From a virus, in IMG/VR virus record IMGVR_UViG_3300035660_000093, positions 1 to 22,214 of that record: a stretch of 22,214 nt of DNA. The stretch is one strand, 5' to 3'. The notes below the pieces were generated by a model, which was not told the origin of the DNA, did no database searches, and saw only the letters and a list, made by a program, of their open reading frames with translations. The position numbers and the translations under genes are program-made. Below, piece after piece: positions 2,285-21,573 of this stretch (position 1 is its first letter; every line of letters begins with the position of its first letter).

Positions 2285-3709
2285 TTAAAATTCTATTTTA
2301 TGTAACTGCCGCTCTTGTTCTCTGGCTTTCTCAATTTCCTTAGTTAGTGCACAAATATCCTCACCCAGTTTTTTTTCAAGAGAATAGCGCTTCTCTTCGA
2401 GGTCTCTCGTACTTATTCCCGTTTTTGTCGCTACCCCCCACAATTCTTTGGGTCCACCCAGTATTTCAACCTGTATTTTCTTTCGCTTTCTTTCTTCCTC
2501 TTCCAGCAATCTCATTTTAGCATTATGCTTTTCGCGAACACCTCGCATCTCCTCTTCGAGCCCGTGCATTTTATCATCGAGAGCCCCTTGTTCTCTCTTC
2601 TGGGAGTCGTTAAGATAGGTGGTCAGTTCATCCATTTGTGCCTTTTTCAGTTCTTCCATATCACTAAGTTCCTGCCTTGCTGTTTCTATTTCGATGCGCC
2701 TGCTTTCTTTCGCGATCCTCTTCGTTTCGTCCAAATCTATTTTTGCCAATTCGCGGTCTCGATAGGCGCGAAGTTCCTCAATCCTGGTTTGTTCCGCCTC
2801 TGCCGCTTTCGCTTTGTCTATCACATCCGTCCAGTAGAGGTCTGCCGCTCTTTTTCGCTTCTCATAATCCGTTCTGTCCAACTCATAGATTCGAACGCCG
2901 ACGCCTGCCATTGCGGCTTTGAACTCTTTTTGAGCAGCGGCAAGTTTATCCTGCAATTCCTTTTGTTTTGCCAATTCCGCAGTAACATCTTTGTTCACAT
3001 TCAAAATCGCCTCTTCTAATGCTTTTCTTTCGACCATTTTGTTCAGTTCTTCTCTTTGTAATTCGGGAAACGCGCTCTCCAGTCTTTCGCGCAGAACGAG
3101 TTTATCTACATATTCATCCGTTTTATCTCGAATCATATTCGTATATTTATAGATCTCTTTTTCGTCTGTGATTTCTCCGCCTGTCAGACGCACGAGATGC
3201 TCAGCGGCTTTTTCGCGTGTTCCCATTATGCCAAGTATTTCTTCGGACTTTAGTTTACAAGCGTCTTCTTCTTTGAACACCTTTTTCACGCCGCTTATCC
3301 ACTGGTCTATTCCTTTGATTATTTCAAAAATGCCAAAGGCAATTCCGATTGGAACAATAGCAGTCATGAGCGCGCGCATTGCAGTTGCAGCAAGAGCACT
3401 ATGGTATTGCATCAGCATAAATAGCCTCTGTGCCGCGACCCCTGTCGACCCAAATTGCGAAGATAGCAGTATCAATTCGCGCCTGCCGATGCTTCCCATC
3501 TCCGTCATAGAATTTGCCGTGCGCGTCTGTTCTTCTCGCAGCAATTTTATTCCGCCGATAGAGGAGCGAACCGTATCACCCATATCTGCGGCGTGTTCCG
3601 CCTTCGATAGTTCTCTTATCACTATCGCCTTGCTCTCTTCAAGGTCAGATTGAAGTTTCGCATTGCTCGCGCTGATTTCTACAAATGCGCTGCCGACCGA
3701 TTCAGCCAT
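2285..3709 (-). CDS. Tape measure protein (short)
   Basis: 474 residues. In siphoviruses this protein sets tail length and passes through the tube during DNA ejection. Evidence: it sits directly after the G/T chaperone cassette, which is its diagnostic position; an N-terminal segment rich in small and charged residues is followed by a hydrophobic stretch at about residues 105-133 (LMTAIVPIGIAFGIFEII); from about residue 200 to the end it is a nearly continuous charged coiled coil rich in Glu, Lys, Arg and Ala. Start at ATG 3709 follows TAGGTAAGAA, eight bases after the stop of the T frame. It is short for the family. At the usual 0.15 nm per residue it predicts a tail near 70 nm. I see no peptidase or lysozyme domain. 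Confidence 0.82.
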   Translation of the reverse strand: MAESVGSAFVEISASNAKLQSDLEESKAIVIRELSKAEHAADMGDTVRSSIGGIKLLREEQTRTANSMTEMGSIGRRELILLSSQFGSTGVAAQRLFMLMQYHSALAATAMRALMTAIVPIGIAFGIFEIIKGIDQWISGVKKVFKEEDACKLKSEEILGIMGTREKAAEHLVRLTGGEITDEKEIYKYTNMIRDKTDEYVDKLVLRERLESAFPELQREELNKMVERKALEEAILNVNKDVTAELAKQKELQDKLAAAQKEFKAAMAGVGVRIYELDRTDYEKRKRAADLYWTDVIDKAKAAEAEQTRIEELRAYRDRELAKIDLDETKRIAKESRRIEIETARQELSDMEELKKAQMDELTTYLNDSQKREQGALDDKMHGLEEEMRGVREKHNAKMRLLEEEERKRKKIQVEILGGPKELWGVATKTGISTRDLEEKRYSLEKKLGEDICALTKEIEKAREQERQLHKIEF

Positions 3710-3716
3710 TTCTTAC

Positions 3717-3962
3717 CTACCATAAATCTTTTAGACCACGCGTTTTTCGCACTTTCGCCCGCGCCCTGTAAAATTCTGCGAGCCTTTCTTGTTCGCCCGG
3801 GTCTGTTTTTTCGTATTCAACAGCGGGGTCATCTTTCTCAACCCTGAAGCCTTGCAAATACATTATCACTTGCTCTCTTGTCAGTTCCGAAATTTGCTGT
3901 GGTGTCCAGCCATAGATACGCGAAAGCAGAAGGAATCTCGACCGCCACGTTAGGGATTTTCC
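3717..3962 (-). CDS. T-frame extension of the tail chaperone (made as G-T by -1 frameshift)
   Basis: An 81-codon frame, -1 relative to gene G, overlaps the last codons of G and ends eight bases before the tape-measure start. It has no plausible start of its own: the only ATG lies about 34 codons in and lacks a ribosome binding site. The product contains LSRIYGWTPQQISELT and REQVIMYLQGF, a pattern typical of T extensions in lambda-like tail chaperones (short helix, then I-Y-G-W-x-P-x-x-I). The frame is open only after a TAA at the AGTAAA upstream, so the slip must occur within about ten codons before the G stop. The best candidate site is GGAAAAT (zero frame G GAA AAT), which is not a perfect X XXY YYZ heptamer. 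The start coordinate given is the presumed slip point. Confidence 0.72.
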   Translation of the reverse strand, partial: GKSLTWRSRFLLLSRIYGWTPQQISELTREQVIMYLQGFRVEKDDPAVEYEKTDPGEQERLAEFYRARAKVRKTRGLKDLW

Positions 3963-4434: not shown

Positions 4435-5121
4435 TTATGCGGGTTCAGAAATGGTGATGTAATCTTCTTTGATTTTCGTGCTACTCCCGCCCGCATTCTT
4501 GGCTTTCAGCCTGACCGCATAATCTCCCGCCTCAGCATAGATATGAGTCGGATTTTGTAGCACGCTGTCAACTACGCCATCGTTCTCGAAGTCCCATTCC
4601 CAAGAAGTTCCAGCGGGGTCAGAAGTATCCGTAAATGTCACCGGGAGCGGCGCCTCTCCTGTCCTCGGAGTTCCTGTGAAGTTTGCCACAGGCGGAGGCA
4701 CAGCGCCTGTCACTATCGTTTTGACGAGGTTAGAGTTGCCTTCAACGGTCACATCAATTTTCGTTTCATCTTTCTGCGGGCAGGTCACTTTTACGCCGCT
4801 TATCATTCCCGAATCCGCGCTTAGGCTTCTTATGCCATCATCGAGAAACAGTTCAAGCGCGATATATTCACCTTCGTTCAGATTCAGTCCTGCCGAAGCA
4901 CAGGGGTCTTGGTCTTTGTGAATCCAGAAACTGAAACTCGCCGTCCATTCCTTGTTGCCGGCAATTACTTCTTTATGCCTATCGGACTGCATATCTGTGG
5001 AATCCTTCACTTCCACTTTTGCATCAGCAGTCCAGTCCGTGACGCCGAGCACCTCGTCCTCTCCTACGCCTATTTTCACGCTGCCATAGGCGCCTGTAAA
5101 ATGCTTGTCTTCTTCAGCCAT
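4435..5121 (-). CDS. Major tail tube protein with C-terminal PKD (Ig-like) domain
   Basis: 228 residues. Residues 1-140 form the tube domain: an early Gly-rich strand (YGSVKIGVGEDEVLGV) and alternating strands, as in lambda gpV-type proteins. Residues 144-226 are a textbook PKD domain, recognised by FTDTSDPAGTSWEWDFENDG (residues 162-181), PTHIYAEAGDYAVRL and a final strand ending ITIS. A Pro-rich linker (AVPPPVANF) joins them. Known: lambda gpV also has a dispensable C-terminal Ig-like domain projecting from the tube, but of another family. Inferred: the PKD domain decorates the tail surface and may bind carbohydrate or host surface. ATG 5121 follows AAAGGAGATAACCG. The gene immediately precedes G, as in lambda. 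Confidence 0.85.
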   Translation of the reverse strand: MAEEDKHFTGAYGSVKIGVGEDEVLGVTDWTADAKVEVKDSTDMQSDRHKEVIAGNKEWTASFSFWIHKDQDPCASAGLNLNEGEYIALELFLDDGIRSLSADSGMISGVKVTCPQKDETKIDVTVEGNSNLVKTIVTGAVPPPVANFTGTPRTGEAPLPVTFTDTSDPAGTSWEWDFENDGVVDSVLQNPTHIYAEAGDYAVRLKAKNAGGSSTKIKEDYITISEPA

Positions 5122-5232: not shown

Positions 5233-6051
5233 TTATCCCTCCACAAAGCAAGCCATAATTGCTTGGTTTCTTTGCACTTTTATAGTTACCGGATTAGTTA
5301 CTGACTGACTTTCCCAGATGTCACCTTCCCAATGGTCAAAGATATATCCTTCTTCTGGAATCGCAGTAAGTGTTATCGATGATTCGATAGGATAAATTCC
5401 ACCTACAGGAACCAATTCTACAGTTCCTGCATTTACAGGAGAAATATCCATAGTTACAGGAACATTCACGTTCCACTTTACCCCAATCTTGGGAATAGGA
5501 CCTGCATACTCGGCTGTTGCTCCTATGGGAAAAGTATCAGGAAGAGAACCGCTTCCTGTGTCGGTAAAGAGATATGTCCAATAAACATATCCACCATATA
5601 CTGTGGCTAAAGTAGTGGAATATCCGAGCAGAGAGAAAGGAAGTGAAGAAATGCTTATCACAATAGCGGAAACAGTTGGAGTTTCAACCTGTTGAAGGTA
5701 AAGCCAGTATAATTTATTTGCTTCCAGCGGAATATTTACCGTCGCTTCTTTCAATGCCGGAACCGGAGTACCGGCGGTAACGAAACCCCCGCCGACCAGT
5801 TGATAGGGATAACCATACGCATCGGAATAAATTCCCATTATAAAGGGGTATCCGGCACGGGGTCCTACTACTGTTTGATAGACTGCCATTTTAGTAACGG
5901 TTATATTTCCAGGACTAACGAAAGGAATTGCAAAACCTTTACCTGCTACAAGAGACATAGTAGTGGGAGCACCTTGAAGAGAACCCGTATGATACCGACC
6001 CGGACGAAGATACTTAGTAAGACTACCAGAATCAATTCGAGGATTCCACAT
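5233..6051 (-). CDS. Beta-rich virion-associated protein with C-terminal InlB-like repeat
   Basis: 272 residues between the tail terminator-like gene and the tail tube gene, where lambda has no gene. Residues 1-195 look like a beta-sandwich of unknown family, with Gly, Tyr and hydrophobic residues and no signal peptide. Residues about 200-272 match the divergent InlB B-repeat pattern: GTVELVPVGGIYPIESSITL, then AIPEEGYIFDHWEGD, then NPVTIKVQRNQAIMACF (the family signature is G-x-F-x-x-W-x-G followed by N-P-x-x). Such repeats occur in bacterial surface and adhesion proteins. Codon use is clearly richer in A+T than in both neighbours, which suggests separate acquisition. Inferred role: tail decoration or host attachment. 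It starts at ATG 6051 after GGAAAGAATAAACT, three bases past the upstream stop. Confidence 0.72.
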   Translation of the reverse strand: MWNPRIDSGSLTKYLRPGRYHTGSLQGAPTTMSLVAGKGFAIPFVSPGNITVTKMAVYQTVVGPRAGYPFIMGIYSDAYGYPYQLVGGGFVTAGTPVPALKEATVNIPLEANKLYWLYLQQVETPTVSAIVISISSLPFSLLGYSTTLATVYGGYVYWTYLFTDTGSGSLPDTFPIGATAEYAGPIPKIGVKWNVNVPVTMDISPVNAGTVELVPVGGIYPIESSITLTAIPEEGYIFDHWEGDIWESQSVTNPVTIKVQRNQAIMACFVEG

Positions 6052-9943: not shown

Positions 9944-10891
9944 CGTTTTCACCCTCCCTGTCAAAAAAGTTTCCCAAGATTCAATTCCATCTATTAGCCC
10001 TAAGCCTTTCGCCCGTTCAGCAAGCCAAACTTGTCCAGTCGCAAGTTGCGCAACTTTACTTATCGGCTGATTCCTTCCGCGCGCGACCGCGGCAACGAAA
10101 TTCTGTCCGATGTCATCCATCAATTGCTGAATCGCGGCTATCTGCTCTTCTGTAATTTCCGCACCTGTAACTCCAACTCCTTTGTGTTCACCACTGCGTA
10201 TCACGTGAATCTTGATGCCTGCGTTCTCTGCCGCCTTTGAATAATCTGTGAGAACTCCATAAACACCGATTGAGCCGACTTCCGCGTTTGTGTTAGCGCT
10301 TATTGTGTTCGCTTGCGAGCCGAGCCAATATGCGCCCGAGCAGCCGAGGTCATCAATAAATGTGTCCACCGGCTTTTTTGCACGCGCCTCAAAAATCGCA
10401 TCCGCCGCCTCCTGCACGCCTGCAACCTCACCGCCCGGAGAGTCTATCTTCAGAATTATTCGCTTCACCGAATTATCTGCGAGCGCGTTCGCAACATCTG
10501 CGTGAATATCTATATAGGAAGTTGCGTCTATTCCGAAGAGTGATAAAATCCACGGGATGTTTTTCAGTAGCAAGCCGCTTATCGGAATCGTGGCAATGCC
10601 GCCATCAATCCGCATCTTGCTTTCACGCTTCGGCGCCTTCATCTGCGCCGCCTGCACATTTATCGTGCAGATTTGCGCCTGCGAGCCGCTGAATTCGCGC
10701 AGTTCACCGAAGAACGCCTGAAGCGCCTTCTCCTCCATTGCCCAGATGCGCCCCTTCAGTTCGCCCAAGAGCACTGCGTAAAGGTCGCCTGCGAGAACAA
10801 AGCCTTCCGCGGATTCGCTCGCCTCGCTCTTTTTTGCGGGCTCAAAACTTATGCCTTTCACAAATAAACCTCTATTTACGTGCTGTGGCAT
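9443..10891 (-). CDS. Capsid maturation protease, S49 (SppA-like), fused to scaffold
   Basis: 482 residues. Residues about 95-290 form the S49/ClpP-fold protease: ILKIDSPGGEVAGVQEAADA (oxyanion region, DSPGG at 150-154), DDLGCSGAYWLGSQAN with the nucleophile Ser185, NAEVGSIGVYG, and SGEHKGVG with the probable general base Lys237 (Ser-Lys dyad of phage S49 enzymes). It corresponds to lambda gpC, which cleaves scaffold and portal during head maturation. Residues 317-482 are the scaffold domain, also made separately from an internal start. The ATG overlaps the portal stop (TAATG), giving tight coupling. The N-terminal 90 residues are less conserved and may contact the portal. Confidence 0.9.
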   Translation of the reverse strand: MPQHVNRGLFVKGISFEPAKKSEASESAEGFVLAGDLYAVLLGELKGRIWAMEEKALQAFFGELREFSGSQAQICTINVQAAQMKAPKRESKMRIDGGIATIPISGLLLKNIPWILSLFGIDATSYIDIHADVANALADNSVKRIILKIDSPGGEVAGVQEAADAIFEARAKKPVDTFIDDLGCSGAYWLGSQANTISANTNAEVGSIGVYGVLTDYSKAAENAGIKIHVIRSGEHKGVGVTGAEITEEQIAAIQQLMDDIGQNFVAAVARGRNQPISKVAQLATGQVWLAERAKGLGLIDGIESWETFLTGRVKTMADERTSIDAEVLNEEAIRAEAAEEAVAKGKTRLAELKAAFSDDLAFAVEQFEKDASLTDAKAAYAEVLKVKLAAEKKANAEMVKGAEGKMRFDEKTGMWIPIITASGAQAVEFHEAAQGEGDFLTLAQAKAKEEKTTVTAAMRTLAKERPDLHVSFVQAQKRNRK

Positions 10892-12360
10892 TATTCTTCC
10901 GTTTCTTTTTCAGGTTTTTTTTGTTCATCTTTGGAAAGTGCAGGAATTCCCACAGGTCTTCCTATTTCGGATTGAGCAGGCGACCTCATTCCTGCGAATA
11001 TTTGCCAGTCAACGTGTTCACCCGTATCCGCCTTTATCTTTTGCGCGTGAGCAATCGCATCTCGCACCTCGCGGTCGCGTGCCGCAACAACCTCGTCTCT
11101 GTCCTGATTCTGCGATTTCAAAACTGCCGCGTGCGTAGTAAAGCCGCGGTCAATTTTCAATCCTTCCGCCTGAGTTTCTTTTTCTGGGTCAATCCACGGA
11201 GGAACAGGCTTTATCCACTCATACTTTTCCATATCATCGCGCTTGGCAAGTTCTCCGTTGGCGACCCATTGTCCGAGTTTCCAAAGATAAATTTTGCTCA
11301 TAGCGGCGGCGTCAAGAAGTTCCTGCCAAAAGACGAATGCTTGATGGTAGGCTTGCTGTATGACCGCGCGGCTCTGCGAGTAATTGCTCTGCGTCCAGTC
11401 CAGAAGTATCAACTCCAATGGTAAGCCAATAGGCAGCCCTATCAGTCGCAGAAACATTCGTAATGCCTCAGTAAAATTCTGTCCGGGAATATTGCGTTCT
11501 ATGCCAGACACTTTTTCACCCGGCTTGCCGTGAAAAATCAACGCATATTCAAGTTGATGCATCCGCGTGGTAAAATCACCTTCAGCGGCAGATTTGTCTG
11601 GCTCTGCTTTACTGGTGGCAAATGCCTGTTCTGCCGCTTCTGCTTGTTCTATTGCGACTGCGAACCGCGAAAGTATCTGCCACGCTATCGCCTCGGAATC
11701 GCAAACATCGCTTATTCTCTCTATCATCGGAAATGATGCTTGACAGGGCGGAACGGAACGCGTGCTGGAAGGACGGTCAGGGTCAGCGATAAAAAGAAAA
11801 TCAACGGGACTGTATGTTTTTGCGGCTGACTTTTGAACATAACCAGACTTGCTATAAGAGCAAAGCGAAAAATTTTGTATCGCACCTGTCGTGTTCAAAT
11901 TGATTCCTGAAAGATTTTTTGAGTCTGTTATTTGTTCTGCCTCTATTAGTTGAAGACTTCCATTTTGTATTTTTAGAATTCCAGTATCACCTGCAACAAA
12001 TAGTTCGCGGCATAGCATCCGCTCAACCTGAAGCCCTGAAAGAATTCCGCGAATTTCCGGCGCCTTCCAGTATTCGCGCCAGAGTGCCTCCGCCTTCGTA
12101 TTCCAGTCCGGGTCCGCCGTGCGCGCTTGAAGAGTAAAGCCTGAGCCGACAATATATGCGACTGCGCGATTCAGCATACCCTTGTAAATGCCATTATCTC
12201 TCATATACATTCGGGATTGGCTTATGAGATTTTCGCGGTCGTATTGTTCGTGTCTTGACCCAGCGGCGGGAATGCCAGAACGTCCTTCTTTACGAGCAAC
12301 GCGCGCGCTATGAAAGCCATATTGTGTTCGTATCTTCGGAAATGTGTCTTGCTCAATCAA
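10891..12360 (-). CDS. Portal protein, lambda (gpB) family
   Basis: 489 residues. The portal dodecamer forms the DNA channel at one capsid vertex and the nucleation site for head assembly. Family features: YDRENLISQSRMYMRDNGIY near residue 50, followed by NRAVAYIVGSGFTLQ; the W-x-x-Y-W motif (ALWREYWK); and LVAGDTGIL-type RELFVAGDTG with IEAEQITD, all in the usual lambda-portal order. The C-terminal 60 residues are charged and helical. The start is TTG at 12360, overlapping the previous stop in the repeated GATTGATTGATTG; AGGAG lies seven bases upstream, which supports this unusual start. It precedes the protease with a TAATG junction. Confidence 0.9.
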   Translation of the reverse strand: MIEQDTFPKIRTQYGFHSARVARKEGRSGIPAAGSRHEQYDRENLISQSRMYMRDNGIYKGMLNRAVAYIVGSGFTLQARTADPDWNTKAEALWREYWKAPEIRGILSGLQVERMLCRELFVAGDTGILKIQNGSLQLIEAEQITDSKNLSGINLNTTGAIQNFSLCSYSKSGYVQKSAAKTYSPVDFLFIADPDRPSSTRSVPPCQASFPMIERISDVCDSEAIAWQILSRFAVAIEQAEAAEQAFATSKAEPDKSAAEGDFTTRMHQLEYALIFHGKPGEKVSGIERNIPGQNFTEALRMFLRLIGLPIGLPLELILLDWTQSNYSQSRAVIQQAYHQAFVFWQELLDAAAMSKIYLWKLGQWVANGELAKRDDMEKYEWIKPVPPWIDPEKETQAEGLKIDRGFTTHAAVLKSQNQDRDEVVAARDREVRDAIAHAQKIKADTGEHVDWQIFAGMRSPAQSEIGRPVGIPALSKDEQKKPEKETEE

Positions 12361-12614
12361 TCAATCACTCCTACTCCGCGCGTAAAGGATGCGCGATTAG
12401 GATTTACCGCCTTCAGATACGCCTCTACTTTGTCGATGTGCGGCTTCAAGCCATCGTAATCTACCGATGCGCCGCCATCTGAAGTGCGCGCCGGACGGTT
12501 CACATCCAGCCAGACCGCCGCCTCATAGAATAATTGCGCCTTTGATTGTGAACCCATCCAGAGAATGTTTTCGTTGAACTGTGTCAACGCTTCAGCCAGC
12601 GTAGTAAGCGCCAT
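12357..12614 (-). CDS. Small head protein at the gpW position
   Basis: 85 residues, directly upstream of the portal gene, where lambda encodes the head-completion protein gpW. The sequence starts MALTTLAEALTQFNENILWM and has a helix containing SKAQLFYEAAVWLDVNRPAR, then a Gly/Asp linker. Length and helical nature would suit a gpW-like or portal-accessory protein, but I do not see enough conserved residues to assign the family. ATG 12614 lies nine bases past the stop of the upstream membrane peptide, after AAGAGGGCGCG. It overlaps the portal start by four bases. Confidence 0.7.
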   Translation of the reverse strand: MALTTLAEALTQFNENILWMGSQSKAQLFYEAAVWLDVNRPARTSDGGASVDYDGLKPHIDKVEAYLKAVNPNRASFTRGVGVID

Positions 12615-12623
12615 CGCGCCCTC

Positions 12624-12722
12624 TTATTTCTTCTGGATACCTTTGACCCAGTAGCCGCATATAAAGCCGACCAATGCGCCTATCACAAGTCCCATCACAA
12701 AGCCTAACATTCCCGTCAACAT
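12624..12722 (-). CDS. 32-residue single-span membrane peptide
   Basis: ATG 12722 behind AAAGGAGAAAAGCG opens a 32-codon frame encoding one Gly-rich hydrophobic segment (GMLGFVMGLVIGALVGFICG, residues 4-23) followed by a basic tail (WVKGIQKK). This is the usual shape of a small inner-membrane peptide with an N-out, C-in topology. It sits nine bases before the gpW-position gene and shortly after a strong terminator, so it is the first gene of the head operon segment. Possible roles are a membrane anchor, pinholin-like or superinfection-exclusion peptide; none is proven. The binding site, topology and position make it likely to be real. Confidence 0.6.
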   Translation of the reverse strand: MLTGMLGFVMGLVIGALVGFICGYWVKGIQKK

Positions 12723-12744
12723 CGCTTTTCTCCTTTCGCGCCAA

Positions 12745-12790
12745 CAAAAAAGGGCTCAGTCGGTCGTGCACGACTAAGCCCTCTGTTGGC
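12745..12790 (-). terminator. Rho-independent terminator after the HNH gene
   Basis: On the transcribed strand AGGGCTTAGTCG pairs with CGACTGAGCCCT (one G-T pair) around an eight-base loop and is followed by TTTTTTG. The flanking TGTTGGC and GCCAACA extend the dyad outside the T run. It separates the endonuclease unit from the head genes. Confidence 0.85.
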
Positions 12791-12819
12791 TTTGTTATCT
12801 CTACCCGTCAGCAGAGATA

Positions 12820-13401
12820 TTAGATTTTCACTAACATTCTTTCTTCAATATTCTCAGGTTCATATTTACTTGGTTTTGGATGCGTCAAAGGACTGCATAG
12901 ATGCAAATTTTCCAAACGATTATCAGTTTTGATTCCGTTTTTGTGGTGAACTATTTCGTCACTTTTCAATGGTCGTCCGAGATGTTGCACCATTATCCAA
13001 ACGTGTTCTCTAATCCAACCAGTCTTTTGTGCATTAGGATGCCCAGGGCGATAAAATATTTTGTATCCACCTTGATGACTAAGTCCGCTGGATTTACTCC
13101 CAGGTCTATGGTTTTTATCTTTACCCTGTTGTGCGACACCGCAACATTTTGTAGAACAATATTTCTCTTGGGATGTATTCAACACAGAACCACATATGAT
13201 GCAAACCTTGCCATCGGTTCTTGGTAAAAGAGAATTTTTCCGGGAATAAGAATAAGGCTGCAAGTGATAGCGTTTTTTTTGAAGAGCACATATACATTTT
13301 TTGCATTGTGCAAGATGGTACTGCCTTTGATTATGCCAATAGAATTCCGTTATTGGTTTTATTTCACCGCATTGTCTGCAAGATTTTTCCTGAATCGTCA
13401 T
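12820..13401 (-). CDS. HNH homing-type endonuclease with zinc knuckles
   Basis: 193 residues. Three Cys clusters precede the nuclease: CRQC (8-11) with CKKC (33-36), containing [18 protein letters not shown] typical of zinc-finger HNH proteins; CIIC (67-70) with CSTKC (82-86). The catalytic region is [20 protein letters not shown] then [19 protein letters not shown] (His152, His153, Asn165), the HNH-3 pattern (R-E-H, L-G-R-P-L, V-H-H-x-N-G). The gene is visibly richer in A+T than its surroundings and is bracketed by two terminators, which fits a mobile free-standing homing gene inserted between terminase and portal. ATG 13401 follows GAGAGGCTGT. A role in packaging, known for some HNH proteins encoded next to terminases, cannot be excluded. 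Confidence 0.88.
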
Positions 13402-13465
13402 ACAGCCTCTCTCTTTGGTCTGTGCCAGGTGCCCCTGGACTTTTCAAATTTTCAAATCTACTCTC

Positions 13466-13493
13466 TACATACTCCGCAAAAAGGTGAGTGCAA
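13466..13493 (-). promoter_or_regulatory. Weak candidate promoter for the HNH gene
   Basis: TTGCAC, 16 bases, TATGTA on the minus strand, about 65 bases before the HNH start and downstream of the preceding terminator. A GTCCAGGGGCACCTGGCAC sequence with a short dyad lies between it and the gene. The -10 match is poor, so this is only a candidate. The HNH gene would otherwise depend on read-through. Confidence 0.3.
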
Positions 13494-13533
13494 GAGAAAA
13501 ATTAGTTTTTGAAGAAAAAAGTTGCTATATGAC

Positions 13534-13560
13534 AATAAAAAAGCCCTGACAGGCAGGGCT
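13534..13560 (-). terminator. Rho-independent terminator after the 165-residue gene
   Basis: On the transcribed strand AGCCCTG, loop CCTGT, CAGGGCT is followed by TTTTTATT. The stem is a perfect seven pairs. It lies 22 bases after the stop of the upstream gene and closes the unit that starts at the 14209-14237 promoter. Confidence 0.88.
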
Positions 13561-13582
13561 GATAGTAAGAAGAGCCGCCTTG

Positions 13583-14080
13583 CTATACCTGAGCGGCTGT
13601 CCCAGCAAGGACAACAGGCGGCTCCTCTATTGAAAATTCTCTCCCCGTAATCTTTTTGCGAAGGTCTTTGCCTGCAATTCCGCAACCGTGCAGAATTGCG
13701 AACTGCCCTTTGATAGTCACTTTCACATTCTCGCGCATTTCCTCAATCGCGCGCGGATGACTGCGCGTCCCAATCCACTCAAGCCATTTGACGCGCCGCG
13801 CGATGAAGGTTCGCGCCTGTCTCTTCGCCTCCACGGTCAGCACGCGGACCCTGTGCACCAGCGCGCAGAATTCGGCAGCATCCGCGAATTCAGGCTTGTC
13901 GTAATAATCTGTGCAGTTGAACCAACTTGAAGTGTGGTGATACTCGCGCGTCTTGAATACTTGCTTGATGACTGCCGCGGTCGTGTGCCACGCCTTCGCG
14001 AGCCGTCCTGCCGTCATCTTGCCATCGCGTTCCGCCGCCAGCGCGTTGTTGCTCTTACTGAAGCCATCGTAGCCTGCCAT
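13583..14080 (-). CDS. Conserved phage-type hypothetical protein (DGFSKSNNA motif)
   Basis: 165 residues, unknown function. The N-terminus MAGYDGFSKSNNALAAERDG resembles short motifs I have seen in other phage hypothetical proteins, followed by a helix-turn-helix-like stretch (TAGRLAKAWHTTAAVIKQVF, residues about 23-42) and YHHTSSWFNCTDYYD (about 47-61). The rest is basic and helical, with a W-L-E-W-I-G segment and a final strand region. DNA or RNA binding is possible but unproven. The gene has its own promoter and terminator and is coupled by TAATG to a 34-codon leader; its binding site is GGGAGG at 14087-14092. It does not belong to the standard terminase-portal module. Confidence 0.78.
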   Translation of the reverse strand: MAGYDGFSKSNNALAAERDGKMTAGRLAKAWHTTAAVIKQVFKTREYHHTSSWFNCTDYYDKPEFADAAEFCALVHRVRVLTVEAKRQARTFIARRVKWLEWIGTRSHPRAIEEMRENVKVTIKGQFAILHGCGIAGKDLRKKITGREFSIEEPPVVLAGTAAQV

Positions 14081-14184
14081 TATACGCCTCCCTTCAAAAG
14101 AATCAGAGCCCCGGACAGATTGAGAGCGGGAACTTGGAAGGTTCTTGCTCGTCCGAGGCTCTGAAAGTTCTTTTGAGTATTCAT
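14080..14184 (-). CDS. 34-codon leader ORF coupled to the downstream gene
   Basis: ATG 14184, behind GGGCAGGAAAA, opens a frame of 34 codons (it begins MNTQKNFQSLGRARTFQV and ends LILLKGGV) whose TAA overlaps the next gene's ATG as TAATG. The whole stem-loop at 14094-14176 lies within it, so ribosomes translating it would open the structure. It may be a regulatory leader peptide or a small gene. Amino-acid content shows no run of one residue as in amino-acid attenuators. Confidence 0.45.
   Translation of the reverse strand: MNTQKNFQSLGRARTFQVPALNLSGALILLKGGV
14094..14176. repeat. Long imperfect inverted repeat (branched stem-loop) before the DGFSKSNNA gene
   Basis: Outer arms TCAAAAGAA/TTCTTTTGA (14094-14102 and 14168-14176) and TCAGAGCCCCGGAC/GTCCGAGGCTCTGA (14103-14116 and 14151-14164, one mismatch) are separated by a three-base bulge on one side. 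An inner stem GAGCGGGAAC/GTTCTTGCTC (14124-14133 and 14141-14150) with a seven-base loop stacks directly on one arm, leaving a seven-base bulge on the other side. In mRNA the inner stem has two A-C mismatches; in the opposite strand they are G-U pairs. The 3' arm in mRNA ends one base before the ribosome binding site. Confidence 0.8.
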
Positions 14185-14208
14185 TTTTCCTGCCCTCAAT
14201 CTATCATA

Positions 14209-14237
14209 AATATACTACGTGGAACAAAAATCGTCAA
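14209..14237 (-). promoter_or_regulatory. Sigma70-type promoter of the internal cassette
   Basis: TTGACG, 17 bases, TATATT on the minus strand, close to consensus at both boxes with ideal spacing. It lies in the non-coding gap after the Ogr-like gene, and transcription would begin near 14202, about 18 bases before the leader ORF. It is the best promoter match that I see in the window. Confidence 0.7.
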
Positions 14238-14257
14238 GAAAAATCGGCACGAAAGGG

Positions 14258-14279
14258 CAAAATAAACACAGATATTTTG
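14258..14279. promoter_or_regulatory. AT-rich dyad upstream of the cassette promoter
   Basis: CAAAATA, eight bases, TATTTTG forms a perfect seven-base dyad centred about 66 bases before the predicted transcription start. The position would suit an activator site or an UP-like element. It is adjacent to the gene for a possible activator (14322-14633), but it does not look like the known Ogr site, so any link is only inferred. Confidence 0.3.
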
Positions 14280-14321
14280 GCTAACAGATTTGCTACTTTT
14301 GAGATGACTTTTTGAGAAGTC

Positions 14322-14633
14322 TTATTCCTGCCGAACTGAAAAACTATGCCTACAAGTTCCGCGCTGGCAACGGCGATATTGCCAATTACCGTGGACGGAA
14401 TATGCCATTGTGTCAGTTGCACTACAGCGCGGGCACTTTATCTCCGCTCTGACAAACTGCGGCTGCGCGGTCTCAACAGGCAGGTCGCTTGCGATGTTCA
14501 CTTCGCCGCCTTCGGGAGGAGGCAGTGCGCATAACGCTTCAAGCAATACTGCCTTGCTCATACCTGAAAATCCCTTGACCTTCCCGCGCGCCAGTTCGCG
14601 CAATTTTAGAATACCTAAATTCTCAAAGTCCAT
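14322..14633 (-). CDS. Rho_N-like plus Ogr/Delta-like zinc-finger protein
   Basis: 103 residues. Residues 5-36 (LGILKLRELARGKVKGFSGM, then KAVLLEAL) resemble the Rho N-terminal/SAP-like helical module that binds nucleic acid. Residues 67-94 form a Cys-X2-Cys-X18-Cys-X4-Cys finger (CPRCSATDTM, then YRRCQRGTCRHSF), the spacing seen in Ogr/Delta activators of P2-type late genes, where the last pair is also Cys-X4-Cys with a following F. The two parts are joined by a Pro/Glu linker. It follows the large terminase by 18 bases with AAAGGAGCGGCT before ATG 14633. A transcriptional or antitermination regulator of late genes is inferred. A zinc ribbon of a transposase type (InsA) is the main alternative. 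Confidence 0.6.
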   Translation of the reverse strand: MDFENLGILKLRELARGKVKGFSGMSKAVLLEALCALPPPEGGEVNIASDLPVETAQPQFVRAEIKCPRCSATDTMAYSVHGNWQYRRCQRGTCRHSFSVRQE

Positions 14634-14651: not shown

Positions 14652-16640
14652 CTAATAATGAGTGCGTATTCTCCGTTCTCCCACAACCGCGACCTGACCT
14701 TCAGGCGCTTGTTTTTTCTGAATCACAGGCGGTCTCTCGCGCGGCAGGGCGCTCACGCCGAGAATATCGGCGGCACACCGGCATAGCGCGGAGCAATCAA
14801 GGTAGTGGTTCGCGCGATGACCCTGCGACCAATAAACCTGTGTGCCCTTGCCCGGCACATACTCCTCTATTCGCCGCTCCGCCGTTATTTGCTTTGCAAA
14901 TTGCAGATGCTCAATCTTATCCGCTTGAAAAAGAGATAAACTTCCAGGCGTGCCGAGAAGAACGCGAAAGCCTTCGTGAACTTCGCGCTTCCATTCGTCT
15001 GCGTTCACGCAGAGAAGGCGAACCCCACCCGGCTGCCGCGTGATAAACCAGCCGTGTCCCATTACCCTGCCCTTTGCCAATCGCGGCTCGTGCCAGCGCT
15101 CTTGGTCACGTTTGCTGCCAAGTCCCTTTGACGATAGATATGCCGCACCGCCCTCACGTGTGAAGGCATAGGTGATTTCCTTCTTGAATCCCGAATCCAC
15201 AAGCACGATATTAGGCATCGCCTTGCTGCCATCCGCCTTCTGCCAGCCGAGGTCAAAAATATCGCTCCTCAAACTATGAAGTGCCAACAGAATTGCCATC
15301 GGGTCACGGGCTCGTATGTCAGTCTGCGGTACCGGAATCTCGCCATAATCTATTAGGTATCCCTGCGCATCTTGCGTCCACGCCCACGCCGTCCAGTTCA
15401 AAAAAGACAACCCCGTATCAACCGCAACCGTCAGAAATTTCGCATCCTTCGGCACGATGCCTTTGGGATGCCGCGATATTTTCCCTTGCACCATATCAAC
15501 ATCAAGACCAGATAAGTCCTCAGGCTCTTCTTCGTAGGGCAGCGCCCACGTAAACTGCTGTAATTCTTTTTGCGCATTAGGATTCGCGGAACGATTTGCC
15601 TCAAACTCCTTTTCTGCGATAAAGGCTTGACTTTTCAAGGCGCTATGCATCGCGTTCCAGCGAAAACCGAACGTGCGCGTCTGAGGTAGCGCGCCCTGAA
15701 CTCTGCCCTCTTTGTCAACGGTCTGCCCTTCCGCGACCAGCACGGGCTTATTGAGCGCTGTGATTCGCTCCTCTTCCGTCCACGCCTGAGCGCAACTTTG
15801 GCAGGCATAGCAGCCCTTCTCGCGCGCCTCTATCACGTTTTTCGCGCCTTGCCAACCCTGAAAATGCTCGCGCTCTGGTATCACATATTCGCCGCAATGA
15901 GGACAGGGCACGGCAACTCGCGTATTCGTTCCCCTGATTGTGATTTCTTGATTCGTCCGCCCGCTGATTTTTGACATCGTGCACTCGGCGAACACATAGG
16001 CAAGGTCAACTTTTGCGAATGCTGCGGTTCGCGCAATTATCTGCGTTACGGGGTCAGCCTCACGGGAAACCACCCCCGGTTCATCCATCTTGTCGGCTTC
16101 GGTGATAAATACCACGCGCGCGGGAAAGGAACTGCGTTGCTCGTCCCCGCCGCCCGCCGCCATAAAGCGCAGGCGCGCGCCATTACTGAAGAGAATTGAT
16201 TCCGCCCTGCCTCCTCGGACACCGCGCCCTCGCTCCGGTAGAAGGTCTGCATAGGCGCTGCGCAGAATCATCGGCTTAACTTCTTCCTCAAACTTTCCCT
16301 GCCCTATCTCCATCTTGGGCGCGCCGAAGATTATGTTTTCGCCGATTTCAAACAAGAAATACATCATCGGGATAATTAGGGCAAGGGTCGTTTTGCCGTC
16401 CTGAATCGGACCCGAAATCCAAAAGTAGTGATACTTGCCCGCGTCAAACTCGTCCAGCACAAGCCCCGTCCACGGCATAAAATCACAGGAGAAGCGCAAG
16501 CCTGCCCGGGGTCCACCTGGCGGAAGGATAATTTCTTCCTCCGCGAACTGCCGCATCGTGCGAACCTGACGTGGGCGTATTACAGAGAACAATATGCGCG
16601 TTACGCTTTTACCGTATCGCCATTTTGCCGCAGTCAGCAT
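14652..16640 (-). CDS. Terminase large subunit, lambda gpA family
   Basis: 662 residues from ATG 16640, which overlaps the small-subunit stop (ATGCTGA) and has AGAAGGG just upstream. An in-frame ATG at 16676 would overlap by 43 bases and lacks a site. ATPase: FWISGPIQDGKTTLALI carries the Walker A variant G-P-x-Q-D-G-K-T (about residues 77-84) typical of gpA-type terminases, and ARVVFITEADKMDEPG the Walker B (about 176-183). A zinc module follows (CPHC, then CYACQSC). Nuclease: FLTVAVDTGLSF and IVLVDSGFKKEITY carry metal-binding Asp residues of the RNase H-like fold. It cuts and pumps genomic DNA into the prohead with the small subunit. gpA-type enzymes usually make cohesive ends. Confidence 0.93.
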   Translation of the reverse strand: MLTAAKWRYGKSVTRILFSVIRPRQVRTMRQFAEEEIILPPGGPRAGLRFSCDFMPWTGLVLDEFDAGKYHYFWISGPIQDGKTTLALIIPMMYFLFEIGENIIFGAPKMEIGQGKFEEEVKPMILRSAYADLLPERGRGVRGGRAESILFSNGARLRFMAAGGGDEQRSSFPARVVFITEADKMDEPGVVSREADPVTQIIARTAAFAKVDLAYVFAECTMSKISGRTNQEITIRGTNTRVAVPCPHCGEYVIPEREHFQGWQGAKNVIEAREKGCYACQSCAQAWTEEERITALNKPVLVAEGQTVDKEGRVQGALPQTRTFGFRWNAMHSALKSQAFIAEKEFEANRSANPNAQKELQQFTWALPYEEEPEDLSGLDVDMVQGKISRHPKGIVPKDAKFLTVAVDTGLSFLNWTAWAWTQDAQGYLIDYGEIPVPQTDIRARDPMAILLALHSLRSDIFDLGWQKADGSKAMPNIVLVDSGFKKEITYAFTREGGAAYLSSKGLGSKRDQERWHEPRLAKGRVMGHGWFITRQPGGVRLLCVNADEWKREVHEGFRVLLGTPGSLSLFQADKIEHLQFAKQITAERRIEEYVPGKGTQVYWSQGHRANHYLDCSALCRCAADILGVSALPRERPPVIQKKQAPEGQVAVVGERRIRTHY

Positions 16641-17245
16641 TTTCCCTTCTTTTTTCTGAAACCCAATTTTTCCCATTGCTCAACCGCGAAATCAACCATC
16701 TCCCGAATCACATCGCCGATTGTCTTGCCGTGAGTTCGCTCCAAAAGTTCAGCGCGCGTTCTGAAAGCGCGTCCTATTTCAGCGAGTTGAGCGCTTACAA
16801 TCGCGCTATCCACAAGCAAACCCTCGGCGATTAGATTTTTCCGTTTTGCCTCTATCGCCTTTTCTGCCCGATAGCATTCCAACGCTGGCGAACTTCCGCC
16901 GCGCATTAGTGGGTCTTCTTCCCCTGTCGCCTCAAACCGCTTCTCGCGCCATCTCACCACGTCAAAAACATCATAGAGCGCCGGGCGGTTGCCGATAGAG
17001 TATTGATGCACCGGCATTCCCTCGCGAATCCAGTTTCTAACCGTGCGCTCCGTGACGCGGAAGCCGTCTGCCAGCGCCTTCGGAGTTACGAGAAGGAGAG
17101 CGCCTGCCTCACGCCCGTGCGTCAGTGCATAGCCCGCGTTCACCGCGAGTTTGTGAAGCCAGACAAACCGCATATCGCCCGTGCCTGCCAGCCGAAGCGC
17201 CTCAGCGAGTTTGCCCTGCTGGTCTTCACCTATCATCTTAGCCAT
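16634..17245 (-). CDS. Terminase small subunit, Nu1-like
   Basis: 203 residues. A winged helix-turn-helix at residues 54-75 (TPKALADGFRVTERTVRNWI) with a wing and following strand (YSIGNRPALYDVFDVVRW) matches the Nu1/MerR-type DNA-binding domain that recognises cos-adjacent sites. The C-terminal half is helical (AEKAIEAKRKNLIAEGLLVD, then a R-T-R-A-E-L-L-E helix), in agreement with oligomerisation and contact with the large subunit. The gene lies directly before the large subunit and starts inside the end of the cytosine methyltransferase gene (eight-base overlap), so the methyltransferase and terminase are transcribed together. The C-terminus is basic (FRKKKGKC). Confidence 0.85.
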   Translation of the reverse strand: MAKMIGEDQQGKLAEALRLAGTGDMRFVWLHKLAVNAGYALTHGREAGALLLVTPKALADGFRVTERTVRNWIREGMPVHQYSIGNRPALYDVFDVVRWREKRFEATGEEDPLMRGGSSPALECYRAEKAIEAKRKNLIAEGLLVDSAIVSAQLAEIGRAFRTRAELLERTHGKTIGDVIREMVDFAVEQWEKLGFRKKKGKC

Positions 17246-18251
17246 TTATCCGCTCCGCCTTCTTGTCCATCCCAAACCTGCAAATTTCCTTTATGTGCTT
17301 CGCAATAGCAAGCATCTGTTTCGGCATTACGGAATTCCCGAGTTGCCTCACCTGCTCTTCTATGTTTCCGCAAAGGATGAAATCATCAGGAAAAGAGCAG
17401 AGTGCTTTCATTTCCCTAATGATCAAAAACCTGTCCTCCCGCCAGTGCAGAAGATGTGCACATCCTGGCGACCATAATGCGAGCAGGGTGGGGCAGGGAC
17501 GGTTTGGTGAAATCCGCTTCAGCCCGAAATAGGAGCGGGAATGCCTCAATTTGCTTCCGTCCTCCCCGCATCCGATTTGCGGGGCGAATTTTCCCGCCGG
17601 CCCGCGCGGCAAGACTATTTCAGCATTATCTGCAATTATTCCGCCTATGGCTTCCTTTGCGGTTATTACCTTATCCGATTTTACCGGAAAGGATGGTCTA
17701 ATACCTAAATCGCACCTTATCCCAACACAAAAAACCCTCAGTCTGCTTTGCGGCACTCCATACCATTTAGCATTCAGGACTTTCGCTGCCATCTCATAAT
17801 CAGATTCCAAAAGTCTGGTAAAATCCCATAGGATACGCTTTTTTTCCCCCTGAATAAGCCCCTTGACATTCTCCATAACGAATACCTTCGGCATTATCCC
17901 AAGGACAAACTTCCCGAAAATCCCGATAAGGGTGTTTCGCTTATCAGAAGCCCGCCTCTTCCCGGAAATAGAGAATCCCTGGCAGGGGGGACTCCCGTCC
18001 AAGACCGACAATTCGCTCTTCCCTATCCCGCACCTTTTCAGTAGGGCATCCGGCGAGACTTCCCGCAAATTCGCATCCCAAAAATCCACGCCCGGAAAAT
18101 TGGCGTTGATAGTTTCCCCGCATCTTTTGTCAAAGTCAACCGCGAGCAGTTCCTTGTATCCGGCTTCCCTATATCCGAGCAGGGAACCGCCGCAACCGGC
18201 GAAGAGTGAGATTATCGTTAGCGGACTTGATGTTCCTAAATCACCGCGCAT
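17238..18251 (-). CDS. DNA (cytosine-5-)-methyltransferase
   Basis: 337 residues, a complete C5 enzyme. Motif I: LFAGCGGSLLGYREAGY (residues 17-33); motif IV: LDGSPPCQGFSISGKR with the catalytic Cys90; motif VI: FVMENVKGL (Glu127, Asn128); motif VIII: YGVPQSRLRVFCVGIR; a short target-recognition region; motif X: QVRQLGNSVMPKQMLAIAKH near residue 301-320. It transfers a methyl group from S-adenosylmethionine to cytosine C5. No partner restriction endonuclease is encoded nearby, so self-protection of the phage DNA is the likely role. The start is ATG 18251 with GGAG five bases upstream. The end overlaps the small terminase gene. Target specificity cannot be read from the sequence. Confidence 0.93.
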   Translation of the reverse strand: MRGDLGTSSPLTIISLFAGCGGSLLGYREAGYKELLAVDFDKRCGETINANFPGVDFWDANLREVSPDALLKRCGIGKSELSVLDGSPPCQGFSISGKRRASDKRNTLIGIFGKFVLGIMPKVFVMENVKGLIQGEKKRILWDFTRLLESDYEMAAKVLNAKWYGVPQSRLRVFCVGIRCDLGIRPSFPVKSDKVITAKEAIGGIIADNAEIVLPRGPAGKFAPQIGCGEDGSKLRHSRSYFGLKRISPNRPCPTLLALWSPGCAHLLHWREDRFLIIREMKALCSFPDDFILCGNIEEQVRQLGNSVMPKQMLAIAKHIKEICRFGMDKKAERING

Positions 18252-18349
18252 CTTACTCCCATCTGCCGCAGTTCGGCGATTGATCTCTTTTGCCTTTTAC
18301 GGATTCGCGACATCAACTCCAACCTCTTTTCCCGTGAAATCCTATCCAT
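18236..18349 (-). CDS. Possible 37-residue basic peptide between ParB-like and methyltransferase genes
   Basis: The gap between the ParB-like and methyltransferase genes is filled by a 37-codon frame whose ATG overlaps the upstream stop (ATGGATAG) and whose TAG lies 14 bases inside the methyltransferase gene. The product is very basic and helical (MDRISREKRLELMSRIRKRQ, then SIAELRQMG). The binding site is only moderate (part of the upstream GAGTGGGA). It could be a translation-coupling ORF rather than a functional protein. Confidence 0.35.
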   Translation of the reverse strand: MDRISREKRLELMSRIRKRQKRSIAELRQMGVRCAVI

Positions 18350-18851
18350 TCCATTCCCACTCGTATCCGCATTTCGGGCATTTCACGTTTCCGAGCGTGC
18401 GCAAGTCTATTTCGGTTTCGTCATCCTTCTCTTTTCCGCCGAGCAATGACGCGAGTTCCTCCTGAAGAAATCCGAGGTTCTCAAGATTTATGCCCTCCAG
18501 TTTCAGTTCGGATAATTCCGGGACCAGCAGGTCAACATCCCAGATGCTAATATCCTGTATCCTGTTGTCCGCAATCCGATATGCCTTCTTTTGCGCCTCG
18601 GTCAAGTCAGTCGCGATATGCACCGGCACTTCAGCCAAGCCGAGTTTCTTCGCCGCCTTCCAGCGCGTATGCCCTACGATAATCACGCCCTCAGCATCTA
18701 CCACTATTGGCTGTCTGAAGCCGAACTCCTTTATGGAGCGCGTAACTGCGTCAACTGCCCGGTCATTTTTTCTCGGATTGCGCGCATAGGGTTTTATGCT
18801 ATCAACCGCGCGCATCTCAACTGCGTATTTCTTTGCGCCTGTCTTATTCAT
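18342..18851 (-). CDS. ParB-like domain protein with C-terminal zinc motif
   Basis: 169 residues from ATG 18851, which has AGGAGGGCT upstream and overlaps the end of the preceding gene. Residues 12-105 form a ParB/Srx-like domain: SIKPYARNPRKND, IKEFGFRQPIVVDAEGVIIV, GHTRWKAAKKLGLAEVPVH (60-78), ATDLTEAQKKAYRIADNRIQ. The G-H-x-R motif binds nucleotide in this superfamily. In many phages the same domain is fused to, or encoded beside, DNA methyltransferases; here it precedes a C5 enzyme and lacks a methylase domain. A C-terminal CPKCGYEWEWNG suggests half of a zinc site. It may guide or regulate DNA modification, or act as a CTP-dependent DNA-binding protein; neither is shown. Confidence 0.82.
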   Translation of the reverse strand: MNKTGAKKYAVEMRAVDSIKPYARNPRKNDRAVDAVTRSIKEFGFRQPIVVDAEGVIIVGHTRWKAAKKLGLAEVPVHIATDLTEAQKKAYRIADNRIQDISIWDVDLLVPELSELKLEGINLENLGFLQEELASLLGGKEKDDETEIDLRTLGNVKCPKCGYEWEWNG

Positions 18852-19101
18852 AGCCCTCCTGCTCAATACTCGCCGGCGTGAACCTGTTCCACTTCTTCTT
18901 TCTGCGCCAGCGCCACGGTTTCGGTTTTTCCTTGAACGCCTCACAATATACAACGCCTAACTCTACATCCGCAAGAATAATTTTGCGCTCGCAACCCTGT
19001 TCAAAAAAGTTCCCGCCGTGAACGCAGGATGCGCAAGCCTCATAAGTGAACTCGCCGATGGCGGCTCTCGCTTTAGTGGTTCTGAGTTCGGAAATTCTCA
19101 T
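18844..19101 (-). CDS. Small Cys-rich protein of unknown function
   Basis: 85 residues. The middle carries CASC, a further Cys (QGCERK) and VVYCEAF, a four-Cys set compatible with a zinc site; similar small proteins occur near terminase and modification genes in other phages, but I do not recognise the family. The N-terminus is basic (MRISELRTTKARAAIG) and the end contains PKPWRWRRKKKWNRF, strongly basic and aromatic, as in nucleic-acid contacts. ATG 19101 has only a weak site (GAAAGATAA). It overlaps the ParB-like gene by eight bases and so is probably cotranscribed with it. Confidence 0.65.
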   Translation of the reverse strand: MRISELRTTKARAAIGEFTYEACASCVHGGNFFEQGCERKIILADVELGVVYCEAFKEKPKPWRWRRKKKWNRFTPASIEQEGYE

Positions 19102-20057: not shown

Positions 20058-20215
20058 TACTTTTTCTCCTTCCGCTTTTTTTGAAAGCGTATTCTGAAGT
20101 GATTGAATTTCCCCCGGTTGTCATAAAACACTGCAACATCTAAGTTATTCTCATAACAAAAGTCGCCAATTTCCTGCATTATGCGCTTGAACCGCTTTCT
20201 TTGTTCTTTTGTCAT
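20057..20215 (-). CDS. 52-residue basic protein coupled to the methyltransferase
   Basis: The frame starts at ATG 20215, overlapping the methyltransferase stop as ATGA, and ends with TAATG into the next gene, so it is locked into the operon on both sides. The product is basic with a helix (MTKEQRKRFKRIMQEIGDFC) and a beta hairpin (VAVFYDNRGKFNHFRIRF), ending in KKRKEKK. Size, charge and coupling suggest a small nucleic-acid-binding or accessory protein. I do not recognise a family. Confidence 0.65.
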   Translation of the reverse strand: MTKEQRKRFKRIMQEIGDFCYENNLDVAVFYDNRGKFNHFRIRFQKKRKEKK

Positions 20216-21573
20216 TTCAATAAACTCCCCTGTGCTGCTGCCACATCACGCGCCGTTAGCCCCTGTAATGGCTTTGCGAGGCGCTTGTTTATCATCGCCT
20301 CGTATTCGCGCGCGATTTCTATGCCGCAATAATCGCGTCCGAGTTGCGCGGCTACAGCGAGCGTAGTTCCGCTACCAGCGAAGGGGTCAAGCACAAGGCA
20401 CTTGCCACTTCCGTCATTCCCTTCGCATTTGCAGGTCGGCTCCCAGCCGAGAGTCCTCAGTCGTGGTGCATTCCTATAATAATCCGCCTTATCTCCCTTG
20501 TTGAGGTGCGAACCTTCGCCTTGCGTGCATTTTTTTGTCTTACCTGTAAATTGACACCAACTCAAATCTTCGCCTATTTCAGTTTTTGTAATTCTTTTCC
20601 ATGGCGCGGCGCACTTCGGGCAAGCCTTGTGGGATGAGCCTGCCAGTATGCAGCGGCGCGGTAGTTCAGGCGGGAAAACTGCGAAATGTGCGCCTGAAAA
20701 TGGTTTTGAGGAAAACGTCCAGACATCGCGGCAATTGCGAGTGGGATAGCGGATGCCGTTTTGCCAATGCCGTTTAGCCTCGGAATCTTTATACTTTTTT
20801 TCCGCATCCGCGTGAAAATGTTGCCCTGCTGTTCCTGCGGTCTCTTTCAACGCTTCCACGTCCCAAAAGTATTTCGCGCTCTTCGTCAGCAGGAAGATAT
20901 GGTCGTAGGACTTTGTCGGGCGGTCAGTGACTGATTCCGGCATCGGATTGGGCTTATGCCAAATTATATCGGAACGAAGATACCAGCCAGCGGCCTGAAG
21001 GGCGAGCGCAACGCGGGCAGGTATCATACAGAGGTCTTTCGGTCTCCCTTGTCGCGCTTGTGGCTTTTTCACATCGCCATAGATTTCAGGGATTGACAGG
21101 CTTCGCTTGTTCTTGTTGCGATAGTCTCCATAGCCACAGTTAGAGCCAAAATAGGAATCGCCCAAGTTGATAAAGCATATTCCATCGCGGCGCAGAACGC
21201 GGCGAACCTCTCTGAAGATGGTTACGATATGCGCCACATAAGCCTCTATGGTCGGCTCAAGCCCTAATGCGCCCCGCCACGCGCCGCAGAGAGAGCAAAA
21301 GGATGCTTTGCGGTCAACGGGACTTTCTTGAACTTGCATTGGATATACCTTGCCTGTAGTGGTATTCCACTTTTTAGAGACATCAGGAATACTATAAGCG
21401 CTCCATTTATGCTCACAATCTGCCTTCCCGCCCCAAATTACATCCTGCTCGCCTGCATACTTCCTGAGTCCCCAGTATGGAGGACTGGTTACAACTACCT
21501 GCACGCACTCGTCAGGCATCGCCGCCAAGCCCTCCAATACGTGGCAATAGAGAACACTATTTCGCCAGGTCAC
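20212..21573 (-). CDS. DNA methyltransferase, N4-cytosine/N6-adenine type (beta class)
   Basis: 453 residues. Motif IV comes first: VVVTSPPYWGLRKY (SPPYW at residues 30-34); SPPY is usual for N4-cytosine enzymes but also occurs in N6-adenine ones. Motif I is near the C-terminus: LVLDPFAGSGTTLAVA (396-404) followed by YCGIEIAREYEAMINKRL. This IV-then-I order defines the beta class. Between them are a target-recognition region and two Cys pairs (CSLCGAWRG, CPKCAAPW), probably zinc knuckles. The start is GTG 21573, overlapping the upstream stop as GTGA. No endonuclease partner is visible, so protection of phage DNA is the likely role. Together with the C5 enzyme the phage encodes two chemically different modifications. 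Confidence 0.92.
   Translation of the reverse strand: MTWRNSVLYCHVLEGLAAMPDECVQVVVTSPPYWGLRKYAGEQDVIWGGKADCEHKWSAYSIPDVSKKWNTTTGKVYPMQVQESPVDRKASFCSLCGAWRGALGLEPTIEAYVAHIVTIFREVRRVLRRDGICFINLGDSYFGSNCGYGDYRNKNKRSLSIPEIYGDVKKPQARQGRPKDLCMIPARVALALQAAGWYLRSDIIWHKPNPMPESVTDRPTKSYDHIFLLTKSAKYFWDVEALKETAGTAGQHFHADAEKKYKDSEAKRHWQNGIRYPTRNCRDVWTFSSKPFSGAHFAVFPPELPRRCILAGSSHKACPKCAAPWKRITKTEIGEDLSWCQFTGKTKKCTQGEGSHLNKGDKADYYRNAPRLRTLGWEPTCKCEGNDGSGKCLVLDPFAGSGTTLAVAAQLGRDYCGIEIAREYEAMINKRLAKPLQGLTARDVAAAQGSLLK

Follow-up and report, generated by a model that had tools for sequence, protein, structure and literature searches.

We analyzed a single virus record, IMGVR_UViG_3300035660_000093, whose whole 22,214-base sequence is called the window here, and focused on a short unit within its packaging operon: a 165-codon gene with its own sigma-70-type promoter sequence, a leader open reading frame (ORF) of 34 codons largely taken up by a hairpin, and an intrinsic terminator (Table 1). 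Gene calls and searches of PHROG/Pfam-type libraries place the packaging operon on the minus strand, with the unit between terminase and portal. A preliminary description of this DNA had named these elements, and we found all of them where it had put them: the promoter (TTGACG at 14237-14232, a 17-nt spacer and TATATT at 14214-14209), the leader stop codon (TAA, 14082-14080) having one base in common with the ATG of the main gene, the stem-loop whose 3' arm stops one base (14093) before the Shine-Dalgarno (SD) sequence of that gene, and the terminator. An equally good promoter within 160 nt of the gene start was present for only 1.5% of control ORFs (4/273).

Table 1. Features of the packaging operon and of the unit between terminase and portal
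Feature	Position	Strand	Comment
Terminase small subunit-like gene	16634-17245	-	PHROG terminase small subunit, E 3.9e-13
TerL gene, gpA type	14652-16676	-	
Zinc-ribbon-like gene, 103 aa	14322-14633	-	Same terminase-portal interval as the cassette
Sigma-70-type promoter, TTGACG-N17-TATATT	14209-14237	-	10/12 consensus matches; predicted start near 14202
Segment A, GAGGGCAGGAA	14187-14202	-	Predicted 5' end plus leader SD; can pair with segment C
Leader ORF, 34 codons, MNTQKNFQSLGRARTFQVPALNLSGALILLKGGV	14080-14184	-	ATG at 14184; stop overlaps next start (UAAUG)
Long imperfect hairpin, 83 nt	14094-14176	-	Most of the leader ORF; common to no relative found
Segment C	14117-14132	-	Lies within the hairpin; can base-pair with segment A
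SD of the 165-codon gene, GGGAGG	14087-14092	-	Identical in L008
165-codon gene	13583-14080	-	Motifs GYxGxSxSNNA ... WHHTSxxYNxTxYY ... WLEWxGTRxHP; widespread unnamed phage/mobile-element family
Stem-loop over gene end, GAGGAGCCGCC / GGCGGCTCTTC	13572-13628	-	Kept in L008
Intrinsic terminator, AGCCCTG-CCTGT-CAGGGCT then T run	13537-13560	-	-11.2 kcal/mol; absent from L008
Stretch exchanged en bloc in L006	13543-14322	-	L006 has an unrelated 828-base stretch here that carries a DUF5131 gene (E 1.4e-14)
HNH endonuclease gene	12820-13401	-	Same terminase-portal interval as the cassette
Small ORF without assignment	12357-12614	-	
Portal gene, lambda-type	10891-12360	-	

Replacement of the cassette and relocation of its gene

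Comparison with related phage sequences delimits the unit on both sides. From TerL (70% identity) to the portal (83% identity), by way of the zinc-ribbon-like gene and the small ORF, the relative L006 is collinear with the window; in place of the cassette, which is exchanged as a single segment, it carries a different gene. No slot that lacked the cassette and was truly empty was observed. The segment carrying the HNH gene (12624-13467) is also absent from L006. Between these two variable segments, an AT-rich patch of 75 bp (13468-13542, 29% GC) is kept at 83% identity, and could possibly be a regulatory or recombination site. In the more distant L007 (TerL 46%), the same interval holds a methyltransferase gene and other genes. 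Because L006 and L007 carry different genes there, the terminase-portal interval is, judged by this alignment, a variable slot.

The gene itself is found elsewhere in a third relative, L008. Its product there is 85% identical to the 165-aa protein, and the gene is located near a clamp-loader-like ATPase gene, inverted relative to the neighbors common to the window and L008. The DNA common to both is restricted to 13558-14099 (82.5% identity), a stretch that starts at the ribosome site and ends shortly beyond the 3' stem-loop. The preliminary description had named homologs lacking the promoter, leader or hairpin as evidence that would refute it; L008 lacks promoter, leader ORF, hairpin and terminator, which on this comparison are not part of the moved DNA. 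The comparison shows that the mobile unit consists of the gene with its ribosome site and 3' stem-loop. In the phage of the window, this unit was joined to a terminator and to a 5' region of local origin that holds the promoter, the short ORF and the hairpin. One arm pair of the gene-end stem-loop differs between the two phages, a G-U in the window corresponding to a G-C in L008 (~4445-4515).

The HNH endonuclease gene has its own strong terminator (12784-12749) and is probably a separate, homing-type insertion into the terminase-portal interval. A zinc-ribbon-like gene is present between TerL and portal in three phages (the window, L006 at 5599-5937 and L007 at 3191-3844), in differing accessory surroundings. 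Upstream of the terminase, the window has C5-cytosine and N6/N4 DNA methylase genes (17238-18251 and 20212-21573) and a ParB-like gene (18342-18953).

The 165-residue protein and its family

Searching with the single protein returned no more than remote matches, from phages and from one plasmid. With a profile, we identified 43 loci in IMG/VR and 28 in genomes (several bacterial phyla and one archaeal bin), for a total of 71 confirmed loci. The members share the motif order GYxGxSxSNNA...A...G, then [EST][WY]HHT[SG]xx[YF]NxTx[YF][YF], and finally a beta-rich part containing WLEWxGTRxHP. The family is not covered, above cut-off or with a significant E-value, in Pfam, PHROGs, NCBIfam or PADLOC; a defense library search gave nothing convincing, and a sequence search of the PDB only chance-level matches. 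The AlphaFold2 model (predicted local distance difference test, pLDDT, 82; predicted template modeling score, pTM, 0.56) had no significant PDB match in a fold search with the full model, and one viral match of unknown function. The C-terminal part resembles an L19/integrase-type barrel (best Z 4.9, weak and too low for assignment); the N-terminal part (pLDDT 68) matched mostly winged helix-turn-helix folds of the MerR/RacA type, again weakly (best Z 3.9). With low confidence, these models point to a small nucleic-acid-binding accessory protein with a winged-helix-like N-terminal part and a C-terminal beta barrel, from a family common to phages, plasmids and large phage proteins. The SNNA-WHHTS domain also makes up the N-terminus of phage proteins that are ~1000-1500 aa long and have no known domains (L016, L020, L076 and L078, at 4001 onwards or nearby); searches of these large proteins returned no Pfam match and no informative PHROG match.

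Promoters recur across the family. A near-consensus promoter (at least 10/12 matches, 17-nt spacing, at most 160 nt upstream) precedes 8 of the 33 members scanned, the window included, although these members are partly related and not fully independent; 0.2 were expected from shuffles, and the rate in control ORFs is the 4/273 given above. Since 8/33 so far exceeds the shuffled expectation, an own promoter is, by this count, a habit of the family. Upstream of the gene in L026, L030, L038 and L043 we observed palindromes such as ATACCCCCAAATTGGGGGTAT that overlap the -35 and -10 boxes or lie between them; these are probably operators, and the repressor may be a shared one or self-encoded.

Taken together, we consider it probable that the unit is an independently promoted, single-gene accessory cassette of the moron type, inserted in a variable slot of a lambda-type packaging operon. 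Transcription would begin near 14202, independently of the late promoter. The moron label of the preliminary description holds for the architecture (private promoter and terminator, replacement as a unit in L006, gene elsewhere in L008); a temperate lifestyle is unsupported, as neither a tyrosine nor a serine integrase was found in three fragmentary records. Besides lifestyle, several points weigh against this reading. Use of the promoter and independent transcription are predicted from the sequence; a recognizable terminator right behind the gene is present only in the window (1 of 33 members scanned); several relatives are fused or coupled to neighboring genes rather than free-standing; and the codon usage of the leader is ambiguous, intermediate between coding and noncoding frames (0.044 per codon, versus 0.195, standard deviation 0.127, for true genes and -0.248, standard deviation 0.198, off-frame).

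The locus is an ordinary but well-documented moron-like swap, with a gene of an overlooked family. It provides a well-bounded case, dated by comparison, of such a swap in the terminase-portal interval. More usefully, it exposes a protein family of phages and mobile elements, spread over many bacterial phyla and one archaeal bin, that has its own promoter and near-invariant SNNA and WHHTS motifs but is missing from standard libraries. This family is the better experimental target.

The structured leader

The leader hairpin is strong on either strand (-41.9 kcal/mol minus, -45.3 plus). For the 132-nt leader region we computed -44.6 on the minus strand (z -2.9) and -46.7 on the plus strand (z -4.0), so that the opposite-strand RNA does pair better, as had been noted, though slightly. 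The hairpin ranks within the top four of 4426 folds of 90 nt on both strands of the window, and all of 1000 synonymous recodings of the leader peptide fold more weakly than the native sequence (mean -28.2, standard deviation 4.0). As a structure the leader is real; a regulatory role for it is unproven.

Relatives of the leader were sought in several ways. Distant blastn in phages and a peptide search gave none; L006 and L008 showed nothing beyond ribosome-site matches; three pattern scans of IMG/VR returned no similar hairpin, and the same hairpin was seen in 0 of 34 folded upstream regions of gene relatives. Some of these regions do form strong hairpins, but of other kinds: L025 has a terminator there, and in L026, L030 and L038 palindromes span the promoter. 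No leader or regulatory RNA of Rfam scored above the gathering threshold, and the weaker matches were judged to be chance. An integron attC site was dropped by eye, as there are no paired RYYYAAC/GTTRRRY boxes.

The layout is that of a translationally coupled leader ORF, with the UAAUG overlap and GGGAGG 6 nt upstream of the second start. An ORF of at least 25 codons with SD and ATG, ending exactly at the UAA of UAAUG, arises in 1% of shuffles. With its intermediate codon score and no homolog found, translation of the leader is plausible yet uncertain. It had been proposed that such translation opens the structure and controls the main gene. This is not what the folds indicate: even when the hairpin is in place, the predicted unpaired fraction is ~58% for the main SD and 94% for the AUG, the hairpin ending one base short of a largely open SD. 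Because both are mostly free, there is no clear lock to open, and in silico the main SD is not paired as it would be in an SD-sequestering leader or translational attenuator. Coupling at UAAUG appears likelier than a lock opened by leader translation. We suggest that ribosomes would load on the leader SD, translate the 34 codons through the hairpin and be handed over at UAAUG, with the main SD also working alone; the hairpin would mainly set the level or stability of expression, rather than act as an on/off lock.

Other explanations of the leader can be weighed against the same observations. The hairpin could be a palindromic junction left at the cassette border by the joining of the two DNAs, with no regulatory role and an incidental 34-codon ORF. 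In favor of this, sequence similarity to L008 sets in at 14099, where the hairpin has its foot; no other phage was found to have the hairpin; and the unique DNA (14081-14322) is low in GC (40.5% versus 56.4% for the gene). Conversely, the rarity in shuffles of an aligned SD, ORF and UAAUG, and a hairpin exceeding every synonymous variant, speak against a mere by-product, which we regard as somewhat unlikely.

The leader might instead be regulated by two alternative folds. Segment A comprises the predicted 5' end and the leader SD and can pair, at 15 of 16 positions, with segment C, which lies within the hairpin. This match is equalled by 3/1513 real-sequence controls and at most 1/400 shuffles; the energy of the duplex is less striking (113/3157 real-sequence controls were as strong). 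The A:C duplex and the main stem cross, and are thus mutually exclusive or form a pseudoknot. When growing prefixes were folded, A:C was favored at 85-90 nt (-20.8 to -22.9 kcal/mol) and the hairpin from 95 nt (-26.8 to -42.9). An early A:C pairing would hide the leader SD until the 3' arm appears, the hairpin wins and the SD is freed; ribosomes or a ligand could shift this balance and so control the coupled gene, as in other phage and plasmid genes coupled to leader ORFs. The excess of the native hairpin over its synonymous variants fits this scheme, and a prophage leader ORF with alternative structures offers a published precedent (PMC4825925). However, the A:C pairing was spotted post hoc on a single sequence, the equilibrium fold leaves the main SD open, the leader has no relatives in any searched collection and hence no covariation, and the leader ORF is possibly untranslated; we deem this regulation unlikely. 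If the leader were a real switch, the gene would be among the few phage accessory genes known under coupled leader ORF control. The stronger claim would make the leader a novel RNA element with two states, whose nascent 5' end masks the ribosome site of the leader through pairing with the interior of the later hairpin. This is more doubtful still; if true, an accessory phage gene would be switched according to how fast or how successfully the leader is transcribed and translated.

Finally, regulation by a plus-strand antisense RNA pairing with the leader, also proposed in the preliminary description, is highly improbable: the slightly better plus-strand fold differs by ~2-3 kcal/mol and a perfect inverted repeat gives similar folds on both strands anyway, and no plus-strand sigma-70-like promoter (9/12 matches) was found near the hairpin, the nearest being at 13208-13235.

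Comparison with known systems

The repY-repZ genes of I-complex plasmids are replication genes coupled to a leader ORF, for which a target hairpin, an antisense RNA and an activating pseudoknot have been proven. The cassette resembles them in its leader ORF, its hairpin and its crossing pairing segments (A:C versus the stem), and differs in that its main SD is not sequestered. The closest published parallel for the leader logic is isrK-orf45-anrP of the Gifsy-1 prophage, in which orf45 and anrP overlap at their stop and start codons and translation is under the control of alternative structures (PMC4825925). Both have a phage accessory gene behind a short ORF, a stop/start overlap and alternative leader RNA structures; the cassette has no second RNA or internal terminator, and is likened to Gifsy-1 by layout and predicted folds only.

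The cassette as an accessory unit finds its counterpart in the phage morons, well-known accessory loci that are independently transcribed from their own promoter up to their own terminator and were first named in HK97/HK022 (as cited in PMC7067206). It differs from them in lying on the late-gene strand and in having an additional structured leader ORF, and its class is assigned here by its architecture rather than by transcription in a lysogen. In common with morons, it is an extra gene between conserved phage genes, with a sigma-70-type promoter and an intrinsic terminator, that is absent from a collinear relative.
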